From contig NZ_JAJFZL010000001.1 in the NCBI RefSeq assembly GCF_020733635.1, forward strand, positions 3,348,001-3,412,000: a DNA stretch of 64,000 nt, in the 5' to 3' direction. Below, one piece after another: positions 55,039-64,000 of the stretch. Numbering within the stretch: the stretch's first letter is position 1; each line of letters opens with the position of its first letter. Both the position numbers and the translations under genes were made by a program. The notes beneath the pieces were generated by a model, which saw nothing but the letters and a program-made list of their open reading frames with translations, was not told where the DNA came from and did not search any database. The DNA is from Nocardia spumae (lineage in GTDB: Bacteria; Actinomycetota; Actinomycetes; Mycobacteriales; Mycobacteriaceae).

Positions 55039-55533
55039 TCATTCGTCGCCGGATGCGCCGTGGCCGAGGGGGGTGCGCAGCCGGGCGTGTTCGGCCCGGA
55101 CCGTCTCGACCAGGCGGGGCAGTGCCGCGGCGACCGGTGCGGACAGCCCGGTTCCGAGGCCGAGATCGGCTGCCTCGACGGCGAGGACCACCAGTTCGCG
55201 TGGCACTCGGTCGAGGGCTCGCGCCAGAGGGAGCGCGTCGGGGATGCCCAGAGCGTGTGAACTGGTGGCGGTGGTGAGACCACGGAGAGCGTCGACCGTG
55301 GTGTGCCAGATGCGACCGGGAGCGGACGGCTCACAGAGGACCGCGTCGATCACGATGGCGAGGTCGGCGTCGTCCCAGGCGTCCAGCAGGGCGGTGGGTT
55401 CCCCGTCGCAGACCGTGACGAGAGTGTCCGGCAGCCGGAGTGAGTCGATCCGCGCGGCCGACAGCGGGCCGATGCCGTCGTCGCGCCGGAACTCGTTGCC
55501 GACGCCGATCACCACCAACCGGGGCCGGGTCAT
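55039..55533 (-). CDS. [NiFe] hydrogenase maturation protease
   Basis: The 164-residue protein reads [20 protein letters not shown], then GPLSAARIDSL, DADLAIVIDAVLCEPSAPGR and HTTVDALRGLTTATSSHALG. The early Glu (GNEFRRDD), Asp and His match the Ni-sensing site of HycI/HyaD proteases. It trims the C-terminus of the large subunit after Ni insertion. Its ATG overlaps the hydA stop as ATGA. It is the last gene of the operon. Confidence 0.88.
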   Translation of the reverse strand: MTRPRLVVIGVGNEFRRDDGIGPLSAARIDSLRLPDTLVTVCDGEPTALLDAWDDADLAIVIDAVLCEPSAPGRIWHTTVDALRGLTTATSSHALGIPDALPLARALDRVPRELVVLAVEAADLGLGTGLSAPVAAALPRLVETVRAEHARLRTPLGHGASGDE

Positions 55534-56822
55534 CGGCGTTCCAGGTCGAGATCGAGAAAATGGGCCGAGCAGGAGATGCACGGGTCGTAGTTGCGAATTG
55601 TGCGCTCGCACAACGAGGTCAGCGCGCTGTCGTCGAGGCCGAGATTGGCGGTGACCATCCGGCGCAGGTCGTCCTCGATGGCGGCCTGGTTCTGTGAGGT
55701 GGGCGGGACGATCGTGGCCGAGCGGACGGTTCCGCCGGCGTCGACCTCGTAACGGTGATACAGCAGTCCGCGCGGGGCTTCACTGATCCCGTGCCCGACA
55801 CCCGCGCGCGGCGCGACGGGAACGGCGGGCCGAGCTGGGGTCTCGTATTCGTTGATCAGGCGCAGGGCTTCGTCGATGGCGTACACGACCTCGATCGCGC
55901 GAACCAGGATGCTGCGGAACGGGTTCCGGCATTCGTCGCCGAGGCCGATCTCGGCGGCGACCTGCCGGGCCAGTGGTGAAAGCCGGGCGGAGTTGAGGGT
56001 GTAGCGGGCCAGGGGACCGGTGAGGTAGCGGTTGCGGTCCAGCGTCGCGTGCAGGGCGGTGGAGTGCGGAACCTGCTGTTCGACAACGTGTTCGCAGAAT
56101 TCGGCCGCGGTGGCGACGAGTCCGGTGCTCACGTGGATGCCACCGGTTTCGATCGCGTATCGGCCATCATCGCTGACGGCCAGTAGGTCGTGCTCGAGCT
56201 CCAGATCGGGGAATTCGAGGTTCGCCGCGAAGCGGGCGGTGTGAATGGCCGAATCCAGCGCACGGCGCAGTTGTTCGGCGACGAGGGAGAAGTCGGTGGG
56301 CGAGGGGGTGGAGTAGAAGCCGCCGACTCGCACGTTGACCGGGTGAATCGCGCGCCCGCCGAGGAACTCGAGCAGCGCGTTGCCGGCCTTCTTGATCGCC
56401 AGCCCCTCTTCGACGAGGTCTCGGTGGTCGGCGGCGAGGGCGACGGCGTCCGGGTAGCCGAGGAAGTCGGGGAGGTGCAGCAGATGAATATGCAAGGTGT
56501 GGCTGGCGATCCACTCACCGCAATACATCAGGCGGCGCAGTATCGCCAGCGGCCGATCCAGCTCCACCCCGCACAGTTGCTCGAGCGCGTTGCACGCGCT
56601 GGTCTGATAGGCGACGGGGCAGATGCCGCAGATGCGGGAGGTGATGTCGGGCGGTTCGGTGTACGCGCGTCCCCGCAGGAAGGCTTCGAAGAAGCGCGGT
56701 GGTTCGTAGATGTTCAACTCGACTCGCTGCGCGACGCCGTCGCTGATGACGACACGCAGCGCGCCTTCGCCTTCCACCCGTGCCAGCGAGCTGACCCGCA
56801 ATTGCCTACTGCGATGGCTCAT
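55530..56822 (-). CDS. hydA: [NiFe] hydrogenase large (alpha) subunit, group 3b
   Basis: The 430-residue product has the Ni-Fe ligands in both motifs: [15 protein letters not shown] (Cys65, Cys68) and [11 protein letters not shown] (Cys415, Cys418) near the C-terminus. A tail LDLDLERR after His421 should be removed by the downstream protease. The [12 protein letters not shown] start is standard. Group 3b enzymes are soluble NADP-linked bidirectional hydrogenases, also called sulfhydrogenases. The start overlaps hydD by 17 bp. Confidence 0.93.
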
Positions 56823-57579
56823 CGTGAACCCGTTCCGCGAATTCCGGCGCGGCCACCGCGAACGTGCTGAAGGTGTGGTCTATGTCGTCGGTGGACATTC
56901 CGTTGATACGCAGGATCGGCAGCAGCGCACCGATATTCGGCTTCGCCATGGGGCCGAAGCAGCCGAAGCAACCGCGCCGGTACGCCGGGCACAGGGCGCC
57001 ACAACCGGCCTGGGTGACCGGGCCCAGGCAGGGAATGCCGTGTGCCACTGTCACACACGTGGTGCCGCGCCGTTTGCACTCGGTGCACACGCTGGTATTC
57101 GGAATGTCCGGCTTGCGACCCGCCAGGAACGCGGTCAGGGCGCCGAGTAGTTGGTGTCGGTCGATGGGGCATCCGCGCAGTTCGAAATCGACCGGTACGT
57201 GCGCGGATATCGGGGTGGAGGTGGCCAGCGTCGCGATGTGCTGCGGGCTGGCGTAGATCAGCGATGTGAATTCGGTGATATCGGCGAAATTGCGCAGCGC
57301 CTGGATGCCGCCGTGAGTCGCGCAGGCGCCGATCGTCACGAGAATTCTGGATTGCTCGCGGATTTCGGTGATGCGCCGGATGTCGTCGGGCGTGGTGATC
57401 GAACCCTCCACCAGCGAGACGTCGTACGGTCCCGGCTCGACCGCACTGGAGGCTTCCAGGAAGTGCACGATACGCACCCGGTCGGCGAGGGTGAGTAGTT
57501 CGTCCTCGCAGTCGAGAAGGGTGAGCTGGCAGCCGTCGCAGGAGGTGAACTTCCAGACCGCGAGTGTCGGGGTATCCAT
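56806..57579 (-). CDS. hydD: [NiFe] hydrogenase small (delta) subunit
   Basis: The 257-residue protein reads [20 protein letters not shown] (Cys14, Cys17), then [49 protein letters not shown] and [20 protein letters not shown]. It carries the proximal [4Fe-4S] cluster and further Cys-rich motifs. It overlaps the hydG stop by one base (TGATG). It passes electrons from the NiFe site towards hydB and hydG. Confidence 0.92.
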
Positions 57580-58433
57580 CACAATTCCCGGATGGCCAGT
57601 AGTGGTTCCGCGGTGGCGTAGTCGACGACCGGCCCGTCCCGGCACAGCAGCAGCGGACCGAGCTGACAGTGTCCACACCGGGCCACACCGCACTGCATGT
57701 TGCGCTCCAGCGACAGTCGGATGTCGGTGGCGGCGACGCCCTTGCGCCGCAAGGTCCGGGCGCAGAACCGCATCATCGGTTCCGGACCGCAGAGGAATGC
57801 CGTGGTGTGTGCGGAGTCCAGTCGCAGCTGAGCGAGGGGTTCGGTGACGAATCCGACCGCGCCGGTCCAGCCGGGAGCCGGGTGGTCGACGGTCTGGTGC
57901 AGTTCGAGCGAACCGGTCGCGGCCCAGCGATCCTGGTCGTGGCGGAAGAGAATGTCCGACGGCGTCCGCGCCCCGGTGATGAGGATGACGCGCCGATAAC
58001 GGTCGCGCGCGGCAAGCGCACCGGCGATGACCGGCCGCAGTGGCGCGAGCCCGACACCGCCACCGATGATCACCAGGTCGCGCCCCGCCGCGGATTCCGG
58101 ATGCCATCCGATGCCGAACGGTCCGCGCACACCGATCACGCCGCCGATGGTGGTGTCGTGCAACGCCGCGCTGACCGCCCCGACCGCCCGGATCGTATGT
58201 TCGAGCACATTGTCGGTCGTGGTGGGGTCCGCGCTGACGGACACCGCGATCTCGCCGACGCCGTAGCTGTAGAGCATCATGAATTGACCGGCTCGAAATC
58301 GTTGTGCCGCAGTGTGAATCGGCTCGAGCGCGACGGTGACGGTGTCCCGGGTCTGCGGGACGCGTGCGATGACCCGGTAGGGCAGCATCGTATCGCCGAC
58401 CGCGGTCGGGCGAGTCTCGGCCGCGACGTTCAT
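57579..58433 (-). CDS. hydG: hydrogenase gamma subunit, FAD/NAD(P)H-binding
   Basis: The 284-residue protein of the ferredoxin-NADP-reductase superfamily has the FAD motif [20 protein letters not shown], the nucleotide motif [20 protein letters not shown] and a C-terminal [2Fe-2S] motif [20 protein letters not shown] with a later Cys. It exchanges electrons with NADP(H). Its ATG overlaps the stop of the cyclic-nucleotide-binding gene as ATGA. Confidence 0.91.
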
Positions 58434-58936
58434 CGCGGACCTGACCCGTCGTCGGAATGCGCGTGGTAACGGCCGGATTCGAGGGGGTTGCGGTAGAGGT
58501 CCAGCAGCCTCGCCCGGGTGGCCTGCAGCCGGTCGAGCAGCGCTTGGAACAACATGAGGACCAGTGCCAGCCCGAACTGCGGATCGGCGTCGGCCAGACG
58601 GGACAGAGCTGTGGAATCGAATTCGATCGCCTCGACCGGCTCGGTGACGCACGCCCCGAATTGCCAGCGGTACGGCGGTACCAGCCATGACCAGCCCAGC
58701 AGCTCACCGGGACCGAGTGTCTGTATCGCGATGTCGGCCTGCTCGGGCACCTGCGCGTCGAGCAGGACGCGGCCGCTGCGAATGAGCCAACAGTGCTCTG
58801 CCGCTTCACCTTCCGTGATCAACCGCCGGCCGGCCGGATAGGACACATCCCGTCCGGTGGCGGCCAGAGCCTGTAGCTGCGACTCGGTCAGCGTCGCCAG
58901 GTGGGCGAACTCCGACAACTCGTCAACGCTGGTCAT
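58430..58936 (-). CDS. cyclic-nucleotide-binding domain protein in hydrogenase operon
   Basis: The 168-residue protein has a single cNMP domain: [40 protein letters not shown] and [40 protein letters not shown]. No helix-turn-helix follows, so it is not a Crp-type regulator. The family phosphate-binding cassette (RxAxV) is replaced by an altered segment around [15 protein letters not shown], so cAMP binding is uncertain. It overlaps hydB at its start and hydG at its stop. Its stoichiometric coupling suggests an accessory or regulatory subunit. Confidence 0.85.
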
Positions 58937-60080
58937 CACCGGCCCCTTCGGCCAGCGCGGCCACTTCGGCGGTCAGATCGATGCCGGCCGGGCACCACGC
59001 GATGCAGCGTCCGCAGCCGACGCACCCGGAGCTGCCGAACTGGTCGTACCAGGTGCTCAGCTTGTGGCTGAGCCACTGCCGGTACCGGCTCTCCCCGGAC
59101 CGCCGCACACTGCCGCCGTGCTGGTAGGAGAAGTCGAGTTCGAAGCACGATGACCAGTGCTCCCATCGTTCGGCGTGGTCTCCCTCGAGGTCGGTGACGT
59201 CCTCGGTGCTGGTGCAGAAGCAGGTGGGGCACACCATGGTGCAGTTGGCGCAGGTGAGGCAGCGACTCGCCACGTCCTGCCAATGCGGGGACTCGCTCGA
59301 GTCACGGATCAGGGACCGGAGGTCGAGGTCGGGCATCGATCGGCCCATCCGGCCCGCGGCCTCGGTGACGGCTTCTCGCGCCTGTGTGACATCCGCGGCG
59401 CTCGCCTGGTGGGTGCCGACCTCGGCGAGGACGCTCGCGCCGGCCTCGGTGCCGATATCGACCAGAAATCGGTGGCCGAGCCGGTCGATACGCTCGGTGA
59501 GGGCGAGGTCGTATCCGGCCGAGACACCGGGGCCGGTACCCATGGAGGCGCAGAAGCACACGCCCCCCGGTTCGATGCAGTTCGCGGCGACAACGAACAG
59601 ACCCTCGTGCCGCCGGTCGAACGAGGTATCGCCGTGTTCGCCGCCGAGGACTCGCTGAAGAATCGCGATCGAGGCGAGGTCGCAACCGCGGACGCCGAGA
59701 AATGCGTACCGGGCCGGGGCCTCCTCGATCGGAGCGGATTCCAGATCCGGAGTGATGTCGGCGATTTTGCGGCGGGGCGGGTGCAGGAACTGCTTCCACG
59801 ATCCGGGGCCGGCGGAATGCGAGAACACGGCGGCGTCTTCTCGGCGCACCAAGCGGTATCGTCCGGGCGCGGTCTGCACTCCCCACCCGTCGGGCAGCGC
59901 AGCACCGGTCTCGAGCTCGCCCAGCACCACCGCACCGTCACGCACCTGCGGGCCGATCACGTTATATCGGTGTGCGCGCAGGACCTCCACCAAGCGGTCG
60001 AGGCCCGCTCGGTCGATCACCGCCGCGTCACCGGGCATCATCGAACGACCTCGTTTCGGTCGGGGAGGAACATCCGACAT
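58923..60080 (-). CDS. hydB: hydrogenase beta subunit with two 4Fe-4S clusters
   Basis: The 385-residue protein has the dicluster motifs SRCLTCANCTMVCPTCFCTS and SSGCVGCGRCIAWCPAGIDL near its C-terminus, and the N-terminal HydB fold (YAFLGVRGCDLASIAILQRV). It links the small subunit and the flavin subunit. The ATG at 60080 is preferred because the DosR-like box is centred 40 bp upstream, as at the ATPase gene; ATG 60038 is the alternative. It is first in the operon. Confidence 0.9.
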   Translation of the reverse strand: MSDVPPRPKRGRSMMPGDAAVIDRAGLDRLVEVLRAHRYNVIGPQVRDGAVVLGELETGAALPDGWGVQTAPGRYRLVRREDAAVFSHSAGPGSWKQFLHPPRRKIADITPDLESAPIEEAPARYAFLGVRGCDLASIAILQRVLGGEHGDTSFDRRHEGLFVVAANCIEPGGVCFCASMGTGPGVSAGYDLALTERIDRLGHRFLVDIGTEAGASVLAEVGTHQASAADVTQAREAVTEAAGRMGRSMPDLDLRSLIRDSSESPHWQDVASRCLTCANCTMVCPTCFCTSTEDVTDLEGDHAERWEHWSSCFELDFSYQHGGSVRRSGESRYRQWLSHKLSTWYDQFGSSGCVGCGRCIAWCPAGIDLTAEVAALAEGAGDDQR

Positions 60081-60112
60081 CGAGTCTGCTCGGGGGTGGG
60101 CAGCGGCCGCGA

Positions 60113-60126
60113 GGGGCGAAAGTCCC
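60113..60126. promoter_or_regulatory. DosR-like box upstream of the hydrogenase operon
   Basis: GGGGCGAAAGTCCC (complement GGGACTTTCGCCCC) closely matches the mycobacterial DosR consensus GGGACTWWAGTCCC. It lies 33 bp before the hydB ATG and right after the GNAT stop at 60138. Confidence 0.75.
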
Positions 60127-60137
60127 GCTTTCGAACC

Positions 60138-60605
60138 TCACAAGTGCAGGATCACGTGAACGACGCCGTCTTCTCGTTGTGCGGCCATCGGGAGATCGAT
60201 ATCCATCAGTAACTCCATCATTTTCGAATTCGCCGCCATGATGTCGGCGGCGAATCGATCGATCCCGTGCCGGCGGGCGTCGGCGGCCAGGCGCGTGAGC
60301 AATGCGGTTCCGATGCCGGACTGCTGGTCTTCGTGGGCTACCGCCATGGCGACTTCGGCACAGTGGGTATCGGCCAGCACGACATAGTTCGCGACGCCGA
60401 TGAGCCGGTCGCCGAGAAATGCGCCCACCGCGTAATGTCGCGGGTCGTCGCTCGCGATCACGTCGGCCAGATGATCGAAGTTCTTCGGCCGCGGGCCGAA
60501 GAACCGGTAGTAGCCGTCGCGGTCGTCGAGAGCCGCGTGCAGATCGCGGATAGCGGCCTTGTCACGTGTGGTGAGCGTGCGATAGGTGATGTCGGAAAGA
60601 TCCAT
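60138..60605 (-). CDS. GNAT family N-acetyltransferase
   Basis: The 155-residue product begins MDLSDITYRTLTTRDKAAIR. The acetyl-CoA site is VAHEDQQSGIGTALLTRLAA. The DRDGYYRFFGPRPKNFDH segment resembles GNATs of the mycobacterial protein-lysine acetyltransferase group, which follow a cNMP domain in PatA. GGAG precedes the ATG at 60605. It lies 40 bp after the flavodoxin-like gene and is probably in the ATPase operon. Confidence 0.84.
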   Translation of the reverse strand: MDLSDITYRTLTTRDKAAIRDLHAALDDRDGYYRFFGPRPKNFDHLADVIASDDPRHYAVGAFLGDRLIGVANYVVLADTHCAEVAMAVAHEDQQSGIGTALLTRLAADARRHGIDRFAADIMAANSKMMELLMDIDLPMAAQREDGVVHVILHL

Positions 60606-60645
60606 CGTCATTCTCCGCAGTGCCGGTGGGCGTGGATCCGCGTCA

Positions 60646-61014
60646 TCAGCAACGGATGATCTGTGCAGCGATATCCGCTGCCCAGTCGGTGACGCGTTGT
60701 TCGTCCCGGAAGTCACCGGCGCGATTCTTGGCCATCGACGAGGCGATGAACCCGCGCGCATCAGGTGCGAGTCGACCGCCGAAGACGGTGGCGAATCGTT
60801 TGGTGAGGCGCCGCGCATCGCGATGCCGGCGACCCGGGTAGAGAGAACCGCCGATGACCACGGCCCCGTATTCATCGAGCGAGCGGATCTCGCGTGCGGG
60901 GCGCACCCGCGGGTCGAGTCCTGCTCGTCGCAGTGCCTCGGCTATCCATTGCGCGATCTCGGCCGTGCCACCGCGTGTGGAACCGAAGGCGATCAGTACC
61001 GGTTCGGGTGTCAT
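60646..61014 (-). CDS. flavodoxin-like protein
   Basis: The 122-residue product reads MTPEPVLIAFGSTRGGTAEI, the P-loop-like FMN site, then IAQWIAEALRRAGLDPRVRP and YGAVVIGGSLYPGRRHRDAR. It belongs to the flavodoxin/MioC/HemG branch and probably carries electrons or acts in heme oxidation. Its ATG overlaps the ATPase stop as ATGA. GGAG lies upstream. Confidence 0.86.
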   Translation of the reverse strand: MTPEPVLIAFGSTRGGTAEIAQWIAEALRRAGLDPRVRPAREIRSLDEYGAVVIGGSLYPGRRHRDARRLTKRFATVFGGRLAPDARGFIASSMAKNRAGDFRDEQRVTDWAADIAAQIIRC

Positions 61015-63737
61015 GGTGAGCTCCTCTCGTGGGCGCGTGTGCGCAGGTGACGTGCGGTCGAGATCGGTGATCGCCTGCCGCATGGTCGAGCCGAGCCGGT
61101 CGTGAAGCGGGCCGCCCGACGTTGCACTCGATGGCCGGGGGTGCGCGGGCGCTCGGCCGGCACGGGTGCGGGTACGCGGAAGAACCGGCGTTTGGCCGTT
61201 TCGGCCAGAGCGAGGTAGACGAGGACCAGAAGGGCGAGGGCGCCGAAGAACGCGATCGGCAACGGCGTGAACCCCAAACGGTTCGCGAGCGGGGTGAAGG
61301 GCAGTATGACGCCGGTGGTGGCGGCGACGAGAACGGCGGCGAGGACCCCGTTACTCGGGCGGCTACGGTAGAAGGGACTGCGCCGGGTGCGGATGACGAA
61401 CAGCACCAGCGTTTGAGTGCACAGGGATTCGACGAACCAGCCGGTCTGGAAGAGGGTTTCACCGGCATGGAAAACGGTCAGCATGAGCGCGAAGGTGGCG
61501 AAGTCGAATACCGAGCTGATCGGTCCGAAGACGAGCATGAATCGGCGGATGAGCCCGATATCCCAGCGTGCGGGGCGGGCGAGTTGCTCGGGGTCGACGG
61601 TGTCGGTCGGGATGGCGAGCTGACTGGTGTCGTAGAGCAGATTGTTGAGCAGGATCTGTGCGGGCAGCATGGGGAGGAACGGCAGAAACGCTGAGGCCCC
61701 CGCGGCGCTGAACATGTTGCCGAAGTTGCTGGAGGTGCCCATGAGCACGTATTTCATGGTGTTGGCGAAGATGCGCCGTCCGGCCATGACACCGTCGGCG
61801 AGCACCCGCAGGTCCTTTTCCAGCAGCACGATATCGGCGGCATCCTTGGCGACGTCGGTGGCCGAATCGACCGACACCCCGACATCGGCGGCGTGCAGGG
61901 CCAGCGCGTCGTTGACTCCGTCGCCGAGGAACGCCACATCGAGTCCGGTGTGACGCTGGGTGCGCACGATCCGTGCCTTCTGCTCGGGATCGACCCGCGC
62001 GAAAATAGTCGTGGTGGGGAGTTTTTCGGCGAGTTGCCGGTCGTCGAGCCGATCCAGGTCGGCTCCGGTCAGGGGCAGGCCCGCCTCGAGCCCGAGTTCG
62101 GTGCAGATGTGGGCGGCGACCGCGGGGTTGTCGCCGGTGATGACCTTGACGGAGATACCGAGGGTGGCCAGGCGCTGCAAGGCTTGGCGCGCCGAGGTTT
62201 TGGGCGGGTCCAGGAAGACGAGGAATCCGCTCAGTGTCAGGCCGGTCTCGACGTCGGCGGTCAGGTGGTCGTGGTGGGGTGCGGGACGGGTGGCGACCGC
62301 GACGATCCGGTGTCCGGCCGCGAATTCGTCATCGAGTGTGGCGCGGGCGGTGTCGGGAATCCTCGTGCAGCGTGCCAGCACCGCTTCCGGTGCACCTTTG
62401 GTGATGACCGTCGCGGTGCCGTCGGGCTGGTCGACGAGAACCGACACCAGCCGGCGCACGTGATCGAAAGGCAGAGTCGCTCGTCTGGAAAAGCGTTGCG
62501 CGCCAGGATGTGTGGCGCCACATGCCGTCCACAGGGCGGTGTCGAGCGAGTCCGCGCCGACTGGCCGGCCGTTCGTCATGGTGGCGTCGGTACAGGCCAG
62601 CCCCAGCGCCACCGGGTCAGCGCCCGGGGTGCCGTCCAACGCGAGCGACCGCAAGAATTCGATGCGCCCTTCGGTGAGGGTTCCGGTCTTATCGGTGAAC
62701 AGCACTTCCACATCACCGAGGTCTTCGATGCACACCATGCGTTTGACCAGGACCTTGCACCGGGCCAGTTGCCGTGACCCAGCGGCGAGACCGGTGGACA
62801 CGACAGCGGGCAACAGTTGCGGTGAGATGCCGACCGCGATCGCCAGCGAGAACAGCAACGCGTCGAGCACCGGCCGATGCAACGCGAGATTGACCGCGAA
62901 GATGCCGGTGGTGAGCGCCGCGGCCACCCAGACCAGCAGCATGGAGAACTTGCGCAGTCCGATCTGAAATTCGGTGTCGGGCTGTCGTTTTCCCAGTCCG
63001 AGGGCGATGCGCCCGAACGCGGTCGCGCCCGCCGTGGCCACCACGACCCCGCGCGCGTGACCAGCGCTGACGACGGTGCCCATCAGCGCGCAGCTGGACA
63101 GGTCCGCGACCGGGGTATCCGGTGGCACCGGTTCGACGGATTTCGTGACGCCGGCCGACTCGCCGGTCAGCACCGACTCGTCGCACTGCAGGCCGTTCGC
63201 CGACAGCAGCCGGACGTCCGCGGGTATCAGCTGCCCGGCCCGCAGTTCGACGATGTCGCCGGGGACGAGGTCGATCACATCGACCGAGACCGGTCGGCCG
63301 TCGCGGATCACGTCGGCGCCGTGTCGTATTCGCTCGTGCAGGGCCTCGGCCGCGCGTTCGGCGCGGAACTCGTTCACTGCCCCCAACCCCACCGATACGG
63401 CAAGAATGACACCGATGACCACCGCGTCGGAATGCTCACCGAGCAGGGACGACACCGCGGCGGTGACCGCGAGCAGCAACAGCAACGGTGAACGGAGCTG
63501 ACGCACCACCACGGTGACCAGCCGTACGCGATGAGTACGCACCGCGTTGGGCCCGATCCGTCGCCGTCGGCGCGCGGCCTCCGCCGCGGTGAGGCCCGTA
63601 TCCGTCGCGGACAGCCGCGTTGTGACCTGTACGGGAGTCAGGGCGGCCGCGGTGGTCGCGGGCAGGGATTCGGGCAGTGTGGTGGCGGCGGCGGTCGTGA
63701 CAGCTGCTGAGGGCGATCGCACCGCGGCACCGTTCAT
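61011..63737 (-). CDS. mgtA: P-type ATPase, MgtA-like Mg2+ importer (P3B type)
   Basis: The 908-residue protein has the phosphorylation motif LFTDKTGTLTEGRIEF (Asp349), the actuator TGES in DESVLTGESAGVTKS, and the ISPQLLPAVVSTGLAAGSRQ helix M4 motif. GDGVNDALALHAADVGVSVD and the C-terminal LLNNLLYDTSQLAIPTDTVD then FMLVFGPISSVFDFATF are specific to MgtA/MgtB ATPases. It imports Mg2+ or a similar cation. The ATG at 63737 is used because the DosR-like box is centred 43 bp before it; the frame to 63953 overlaps the HAD gene. Confidence 0.9.
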   Translation of the reverse strand: MNGAAVRSPSAAVTTAAATTLPESLPATTAAALTPVQVTTRLSATDTGLTAAEAARRRRRIGPNAVRTHRVRLVTVVVRQLRSPLLLLLAVTAAVSSLLGEHSDAVVIGVILAVSVGLGAVNEFRAERAAEALHERIRHGADVIRDGRPVSVDVIDLVPGDIVELRAGQLIPADVRLLSANGLQCDESVLTGESAGVTKSVEPVPPDTPVADLSSCALMGTVVSAGHARGVVVATAGATAFGRIALGLGKRQPDTEFQIGLRKFSMLLVWVAAALTTGIFAVNLALHRPVLDALLFSLAIAVGISPQLLPAVVSTGLAAGSRQLARCKVLVKRMVCIEDLGDVEVLFTDKTGTLTEGRIEFLRSLALDGTPGADPVALGLACTDATMTNGRPVGADSLDTALWTACGATHPGAQRFSRRATLPFDHVRRLVSVLVDQPDGTATVITKGAPEAVLARCTRIPDTARATLDDEFAAGHRIVAVATRPAPHHDHLTADVETGLTLSGFLVFLDPPKTSARQALQRLATLGISVKVITGDNPAVAAHICTELGLEAGLPLTGADLDRLDDRQLAEKLPTTTIFARVDPEQKARIVRTQRHTGLDVAFLGDGVNDALALHAADVGVSVDSATDVAKDAADIVLLEKDLRVLADGVMAGRRIFANTMKYVLMGTSSNFGNMFSAAGASAFLPFLPMLPAQILLNNLLYDTSQLAIPTDTVDPEQLARPARWDIGLIRRFMLVFGPISSVFDFATFALMLTVFHAGETLFQTGWFVESLCTQTLVLFVIRTRRSPFYRSRPSNGVLAAVLVAATTGVILPFTPLANRLGFTPLPIAFFGALALLVLVYLALAETAKRRFFRVPAPVPAERPRTPGHRVQRRAARFTTGSARPCGRRSPISTARHLRTRAHERSSP

Positions 63738-63773
63738 ACTGTCGATGGTTCCGGCGAGCGGCCGGTCCCACCA

Positions 63774-63787
63774 GGGACCAAAGCCCC
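63774..63787. promoter_or_regulatory. DosR-like box between the ATPase and HAD genes
   Basis: GGGACCAAAGCCCC resembles the DosR consensus GGGACTWWAGTCCC (complement GGGGCTTTGGTCCC). It lies 37 bp before the ATPase ATG and about 84 bp before the HAD start, so it can serve both directions. Confidence 0.65.
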
Positions 63788-63870: not shown

Positions 63871-64000
63871 GTGGAGGCTGCGGAACCGGCGGGCCCGGTG
63901 ATCGATACCCGTCTTTTCGATGCCGTGGTGTTCGACATGGATGGTGTCGTCACCGATACGGCCTCGATTCACGCCGCCGCATGGACGCAGGTGTTCGATC
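63871..64000 (+). CDS. HAD-superfamily hydrolase, beta-phosphoglucomutase-like, 5' part only
   Basis: The open frame starts at GTG 63871 after GGTGGGGGG and runs off the right edge. Its 43 residues contain the HAD motif I VVFDMDGVVTDTASIHAAAW. This is the subfamily of beta-phosphoglucomutase and trehalose-linked HAD proteins. It is divergent from the ATPase and shares its DosR-like box. The rest lies outside the window. Confidence 0.8.
   Translation, partial: MEAAEPAGPVIDTRLFDAVVFDMDGVVTDTASIHAAAWTQVFD

Follow-up and report, generated by a model that had tools for sequence, protein, structure and literature searches.

Two short palindromes in a Nocardia genome raise the question of whether one regulator of the hypoxic response, DosR, could govern both a hydrogenase operon (hyh) and an operon for magnesium import (mgtA). 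They lie in the window, by which we mean the whole stretch of 64,000 nucleotides (nt) that was analyzed, positions 3348001–3412000 of contig C1 in a genome of 7.07 Mb. We consider it highly probable that the boxes are activator sites for DosR (DevR), one serving an mgtA transcript that is plausibly near-leaderless and the other a separate hyh transcript whose leader would span about 36 nt. Judging from comparison with related genomes, both boxes are very probably DosR sites, and control of the two operons by DosR is well supported by a dosR/dosS pair in the genome, an island of boxes, promoter footprints with a fixed spacing to the −10 element, and the linkage of the Mg-ATPase gene to dosR.

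Boxes and regulators

Boxes were scored against GGGACTWWAGTCCC, which we take to be the DosR consensus. The hyh-side box, GGGGCGAAAGTCCC at 60113–60126 (minus strand, reading GGGACTTTCGCCCC), and the mgtA-side box, GGGACCAAAGCCCC at 63774–63787 (minus strand, reading GGGGCTTTGGTCCC), match this consensus in 12 of 14 positions each, and both are found where an earlier note on this DNA had placed two near-consensus palindromes. No other site in the whole window has two mismatches or fewer. By chance 0.27 sites would be expected, and two or more turned up in 4 of 100 shuffles; on window statistics alone, the two boxes would be a weak finding.

The scan of the whole genome and the search for dosR and dosS that the earlier note had proposed gave a more informative picture. 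Six of the 16 genomic matches to GGGACTWWAGTCCC are packed into about 16.1 kb (C1 3408113–3424250), an island that is opened by the two boxes of the window and continues past its right edge. The Poisson estimate for six matches in such a length is about 3e-12, for a stretch that was picked after the clustering had been seen. Besides universal-stress proteins, genes of the island code for a short-chain dehydrogenase, a nitroreductase and an alpha/beta hydrolase. The island also contains the gene of a second P-type ATPase, which shares 35% identity with MgtA. Another cluster, about 516 kb away at 2877–2892 kb, contains universal-stress proteins, a nitroreductase, a flavodoxin, a pyridoxamine-oxidase-like protein, an S30AE protein and dosR/dosS.

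The response regulator of this second cluster (L019:15975-16616, minus strand) scores 347 bits against the DevR structure 3c3w over residues 1–208, and its recognition helix, AEKTVKNYVSRLLAKLGM, is identical to that of DevR in 3c3w. For the kinase (L019:12440-14164, minus strand), GAF-domain matches were obtained to 2vzw at 236 bits, a structure whose deposition names it a probable histidine kinase response regulator, and to DevS 2y8h at 215 bits; it also matches the DevS/DosT catalytic domains 3zxo and 3zxq. The GAF domains in 2vzw and 2y8h are heme-binding. By these matches the genome encodes a predicted DosR/DosS pair, consisting of a DosR orthologue and a DosS-type GAF sensor kinase; the lack of any DosR homologue, which according to the earlier note would speak against the idea, is thus not what was found. 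There is one dosR match at E ≤ 1e-75 among the matches listed for this genome, and the protein next closest to DosR is only 39% identical (among the best 30 of 46 GerE loci). At the same threshold dosR is matched in 93 of 98 Nocardia genomes, this one included. The box of dosR itself is weaker: AGGACTTTGGTCCA matches in 11 of 14 positions and lies 75.5 base pairs (bp) before the dosR start, with TATGGT 23 nt after it.

Promoters of the two operons

The hyh-side box is conserved in Nocardia. HyhB is found in 34 of the 98 Nocardia genomes, and 30 Nocardia loci, including that of the window, were scanned over a region reaching from 200 bp before to 40 bp past the equivalent of the ATG at 60080. 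A box of at least 11/14 is present in 18 of them (0.61 expected) and one of at least 12/14 in 11 (0.09 expected); in 15 of those 18 it begins at −40 to −49, as it does in the window. The sequence AGACT follows the best box at a distance of 23 or 24 nt in 18 of the 30 loci, compared to 92 of 17319 random 18-nt windows from the same loci. In the window this conserved element is part of the −10-like hexamer CAGACT (60083–60088, minus strand), 24 nt after the box.

The position of the start codon changes how the spacing of the boxes is to be read. The earlier note had placed the boxes 40 and 43 bp before the first ATGs of their operons, and took this equal spacing as a sign of leaderless or near-leaderless transcripts. 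The distances from box centre to first in-frame ATG are indeed 39.5 bp for hyh (ATG 60080) and 43.5 bp for mgtA (ATG 63737); it is the use of ATG 60080 as the hyhB start that finds no support among the relatives. In 8 of the 30 hyh loci an in-frame stop codon lies downstream of the equivalent of this ATG, and in 25 there is no in-frame ATG, GTG or TTG between −9 and +30. An ATG or GTG is present at +33 to +48 in every one of the 30, and in 22 a Shine-Dalgarno-like GAGG, GGAG or similar sequence stands before it. The order in the window is the box (60126–60113), a 24-nt spacer, CAGACT (60088–60083), GAGG and a start codon at 60041 (60039–60041, minus strand), with a second ATG at 60036–60038. 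It is more likely, then, that hyhB starts at 60041 (or 60038), some 39 nt after ATG 60080. Applying the usual distance from −10 element to start, the transcript probably begins near 60077. Its leader would then measure about 36 nt, and ATG 60080 falls just upstream of the predicted transcript start. Because of this later start and leader, the similarity of the 40 and 43 bp spacings appears to be coincidental, and the leaderless interpretation does not hold for hyh.

For mgtA it is plausible. Orthologues (E ≤ 1e-250) are present in 18 of the 98 Nocardia genomes, and the footprint was studied in 19 loci, the window's own included. In addition to the palindrome score, we used an asymmetric pattern, GGGNCTTTSGNCCC; since it was built from this genome's own matches, only the relatives provide an independent test of it. 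A sense match of at least 13/14 to this pattern is found in 11 of the 19 loci (0.04 expected), and a palindrome score of at least 11/14 in 10 (0.22 expected), which shows conservation of the box upstream of mgtA orthologues. The −10-like hexamer AACCAT (63745–63750, minus strand) is separated from the box by 23 nt and from the ATG by 7 nt. The arrangement of box, 23 nt, NACCAT, 6–7 nt and ATG is shared by the window and three near relatives (L221–L223), which support ATG 63737 as the mgtA start. Given this short distance in all four, a transcript that is leaderless or has a one-base leader is plausible. In four other loci (L228, L229, L233, L236) the hexamer at 22–23 nt from the box is of the TACC or TATC type and lacks the final T of TANNNT; a leader seems to come next. 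Two Nocardia homologues of 63% identity (L237, L238) have no 13/14 box.

The gene neighborhood points in the same direction. Of 17 Nocardia genomes with an mgtA orthologue of at least 70% identity (this genome included), at least 12 carry a dosR match on the same contig and no more than 20 kb away from it. Among the matches listed, dosR is within 0.6 kb of mgtA in five genomes (G001, G006, G027, G060, G072), and 1.2 kb (G040) or 7.5 kb (G085) from hyhB. Genes similar to those of the island, one or more per locus, are found in the short flanks of 16 of the 19 mgtA loci. Two mycobacterial loci, chosen for having mgtA near hyh, also carry boxes: L210 has two of 12/14, and L199 one palindrome of 10/14 (13/14 with the asymmetric pattern). 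The box at mgtA thus seems to follow the gene neighborhood.

Proposed mechanism and its rivals

From the boxes, the dosRS genes, the conserved architecture and the gene families, we infer the following course, from signal, binding and induction to transcription starts, operon transcription and roles. Under hypoxia the DosS-type kinase would phosphorylate DosR, which would then bind each box over the −35 region and recruit RNA polymerase to the weak −10 element 23–24 bp further on. The 63774 box would drive a leaderless or near-leaderless transcript of mgtA, a flavodoxin-like gene and a GNAT acetyltransferase gene. The 60113 box would drive a separate transcript of hyhB, a gene for a cyclic nucleoside monophosphate (cNMP)-binding domain, hyhG, hyhS, hyhL and a protease gene, whose leader of about 36 nt would include a Shine-Dalgarno sequence. 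The products may contribute NAD(P)H re-oxidation with H2 release, Mg2+ supply and protein acetylation in dormancy.

A number of observations weigh against this reading. The 16 genomic matches compare with 34 for the reversed pattern, so the genome-wide count is not raised; the case for the boxes lies in their clustering and conservation. The dosR gene is about 520 kb from the two boxes. In this genome, NANNNT follows at 23 or 24 nt in 5 of 14 box/orientation rows (10 places), namely at hyhB, mgtA, dosR, a universal-stress gene and one place with an unclear gene, and the −10-like elements of the window lack the first T of TANNNT. Twelve of the 30 hyh loci have no box of 11/14. In a wider set of named hyh loci (80 fetched, 76 usable, in part overlapping the genomes of the Nocardia set), a box of at least 11/14 within 250 bp is found in 17 of 76, with 1.24 expected; many mycobacterial hyh loci have a nitroreductase-like gene immediately upstream of hyhB, and for this reason their promoter may be further away. 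Eight of the 19 mgtA loci remain below the 13/14 threshold. The 11 mgtA homologues taken as a contrast set from other genera of the family provided ten usable ones (L271 was dropped for too little upstream sequence), and these gave one weak box only (L265, 11/14). As for the GNAT gene, it has a box of its own within 300 bp upstream in 1 of 18 loci, and its distance to a dosR match is 20 kb or less in at least 4 of 17 genomes (G043, G045, G078, G081). Moreover, carbon monoxide did not induce Hyh in M. smegmatis, according to PMC8125079.

Could the palindromes be something else? That they arose by chance in G+C-rich DNA, or belong to another NarL-type regulator, would agree with the shuffled windows, with genome-wide matches that do not exceed the control and with the 46 GerE matches of the genome. 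We think this very unlikely, as the boxes are clustered with families known from DosR regulons and conserved at a fixed spacing from the −10 element, and there is a single close DosR copy. Even less credible, in our opinion, is that the 60113 box forms a hairpin terminating the mgtA operon, with hyh transcribed by read-through from the mgtA promoter. The palindrome does lie between the GNAT stop codon and hyhB on the same strand; it is not followed by a T-run, the box and the 23–24 nt to AGACT are kept in relatives, and a GNAT homologue occurs in 5 of 101 loci around hyh, this genome's included.

A closer variant accepts both operons as DosR targets and takes both transcripts to be leaderless or near-leaderless. 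The measured distances to the first in-frame ATGs and the ATG 6–7 nt after the mgtA hexamer, in the window and in L221–L223, agree with it. What makes it very improbable is the hyh side, where the conserved start lies about 39 nt downstream, with the intervening stop codon in 8 of 30 loci and the Shine-Dalgarno-like sequence in 22 of 30, and where transcription would begin downstream of the A of ATG 60080. We therefore favor DosR control with a leader for hyh and, plausibly, essentially none for mgtA.

Gene content and relation to known regulons

The mgtA gene (61011–63737, minus strand) encodes an MgtA-type Mg2+-translocating P-type ATPase, with 733 bits against TIGR01524 (cut-off 610.75) and MgtA as its best Protein Data Bank (PDB) match (8uy7, 573 bits). 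The start of the next gene overlaps the mgtA stop codon (60646–61014, minus strand). Its product is a flavodoxin-like protein of 122 residues that covers positions 1–69 of the 145 of PF12724 and aligns weakly with the flavodoxin of the dosR cluster. Because it is short and only half of the profile is covered, it may not bind flavin mononucleotide normally; given its length below that of the family and the weak alignment, it may be degenerate. Among 101 hyh loci and 32 mgtA loci, the gene was found in this genome only. The third gene (60138–60611, minus strand) encodes a GNAT acetyltransferase akin to the catalytic half of Pat: it matches positions 139–285 of NF058543 (E 8e-13; 48 bits, below the cut-off of 460) and the PDB structures 4nxy and 4ava, and consists of the GNAT half only, without a fused cNMP domain. 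Orthologues (E ≤ 1e-25) are present in 17 of 98 Nocardia genomes, and in G043 and G045 they directly follow mgtA, without the flavodoxin-like gene. The order mgtA–flavodoxin–GNAT has so far been seen in this genome only, and few GNAT loci are dosR-linked or boxed, so the DosR case is weaker for these two genes than for mgtA. The proposal that one control covers Mg2+ import, flavodoxin and acetyltransferase is thus sustained for mgtA by footprint and dosR linkage; what backs the other two is their position behind it. On the far side of the 63774 box, which lies in the shared intergenic region, a divergent gene begins (probable 5' end 63871–64000, plus strand). It encodes a HAD/trehalose-phosphatase/GH65 fusion of about 1319 residues that runs to L016:10830, and relatives are found near hyh in several other actinobacteria.

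The hyh genes are all on the minus strand. Following the 4Fe-4S electron-transfer subunit gene hyhB (58923–60041; Fer4_22, best NCBIfam sulfhydrogenase beta subunits, below cut-offs), whose open reading frame reaches the probably unused ATG 60080, there are a small cNMP-binding-domain gene (58430–58939; PF00027), in the same place in the other Nocardia loci examined, and hyhG for the FAD/NAD(P)-binding gamma subunit (57579–58433). They are followed by hyhS for the [NiFe] hydrogenase small subunit (56806–57579; PF01058, NCBIfam ShyD best, below cut-off), hyhL for the large subunit (55530–56822) and a maturation protease gene (55039–55533; TIGR00072 over cut-off). With four subunits (B, G, S, L) and both Ni-binding motifs in HyhL, the hydrogenase is 3b-like by sequence; in NCBIfam, HyhL and HyhS come closest to the sulfhydrogenase 2 families, with scores far below the cut-offs. 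Maturation is plausible, since HypD is encoded elsewhere in the genome and the operon has its own protease. An exact match to GGGNCTTTSGNCCC at C1:3803499-3803512 (L020) lies upstream of or inside the start of an acyl-ACP desaturase-like gene, as judged by eye, and about 11–21 kb from it are hypD and a second [NiFe] hydrogenase.

The cNMP-domain gene is also found in the hyh operons of Amycolatopsis, Kutzneria, Lentzea, Kribbella and Rhodococcus. The usual motif for binding cyclic AMP (cAMP) is Arg-Ser/Thr-Ala, and by eye the Nocardia protein has WQFGA in its place. As the motif seems to be absent, the protein may serve as a partner of the hydrogenase and not as a cAMP sensor. The cNMP protein and the GNAT protein each match one half of Pat, but the idea of a split Pat was rejected: the match on the cNMP side is a weak one (E 3e-4), outscored by three other families.

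Elsewhere in the genome, a box, GGGACTGTCGTCCC, is centred 32.5 bp from the first ATG of the second P-type ATPase gene (L016:19276-20000, C1:3424276 onwards), and an S30AE-type (ribosome hibernation-like) gene at L019:17307-18149 has an 11/14 box directly upstream. Matches at C1 1383288, 4519459, 4757186 and 4770598 are inside called genes with high third-position G+C and are probably due to chance; further candidate matches lie at 699082, 1993267, 4306517 and 4852872. Six stretches around universal-stress genes outside both clusters (L084–L089) showed no 11/14 box (or 13/14 asymmetric match), except two in L086.

Compared to the mycobacterial DosR/DevR dormancy regulon, the Nocardia system has an orthologous DosR and DosS, the same box, universal-stress proteins, nitroreductases, a pyridoxamine-oxidase-like protein, an S30AE protein and a further P-type ATPase. 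Nitroreductase, pyridoxamine-oxidase-like, S30AE and P-type ATPase families are typical of mycobacterial DosR regulons. It differs in its two clusters and in the MgtA-type Mg2+ ATPase with flavodoxin-like and GNAT genes; the P-type ATPase gene of the M. tuberculosis regulon is a different one, ctpF. The Nocardia pump is MgtA-like in passing the family cut-off and in its best structural match, and unlike MgtA in being dosR-linked and preceded by a DosR box. Enterobacterial MgtA responds to Mg2+ through PhoPQ. In the case of the mycobacterial protein lysine acetyltransferase Pat/KAT (4ava; NF058543), the catalytic half is related and the fused cNMP domain is missing from the Nocardia protein.

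For the hydrogenase the parallel is closer. As the earlier note stated, Hyh (hydrogenase 3) of M. smegmatis is under DosR; PMC8125079 and PMC13098282 place it in the dos regulon. The former also lists universal-stress proteins and Acg there, and DosR motifs in mycobacteria are mentioned in PMC3388012. The mycobacterial hyh loci examined (M. smegmatis not among them) share the order hyhB-G-S-L-protease. They differ from Nocardia in the cNMP-domain gene between hyhB and hyhG, for which tblastn at E 1e-8 finds no counterpart in the mycobacterial loci.

Control of hyh by DosR is thus already known from mycobacteria, and the Mg-pump operon looks like an addition. A bolder idea is that DosR, in Nocardia and perhaps also in certain mycobacteria, switches on active Mg2+ uptake and, with it, a Pat-like acetyltransferase no longer under cAMP control. 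We regard it as unlikely, the more so since so few GNAT loci have a box and the flavodoxin-like gene was found in this genome only. On this view the acetyltransferase would feed back on the dormancy programme (e.g., universal-stress proteins or DosR itself), and Mg2+ would support ribosome hibernation and ATP economy.

In practical terms, the boxes suggest a tight promoter model of box, 23–24 nt and NANNNT, and the corrected hyhB start matters for the design of reporters. For the biology of these bacteria, the DosR regulon would be extended to an MgtA-type Mg importer and, in this genome, to the Pat-like acetyltransferase behind mgtA, which would tie Mg2+ uptake to the hypoxic response.

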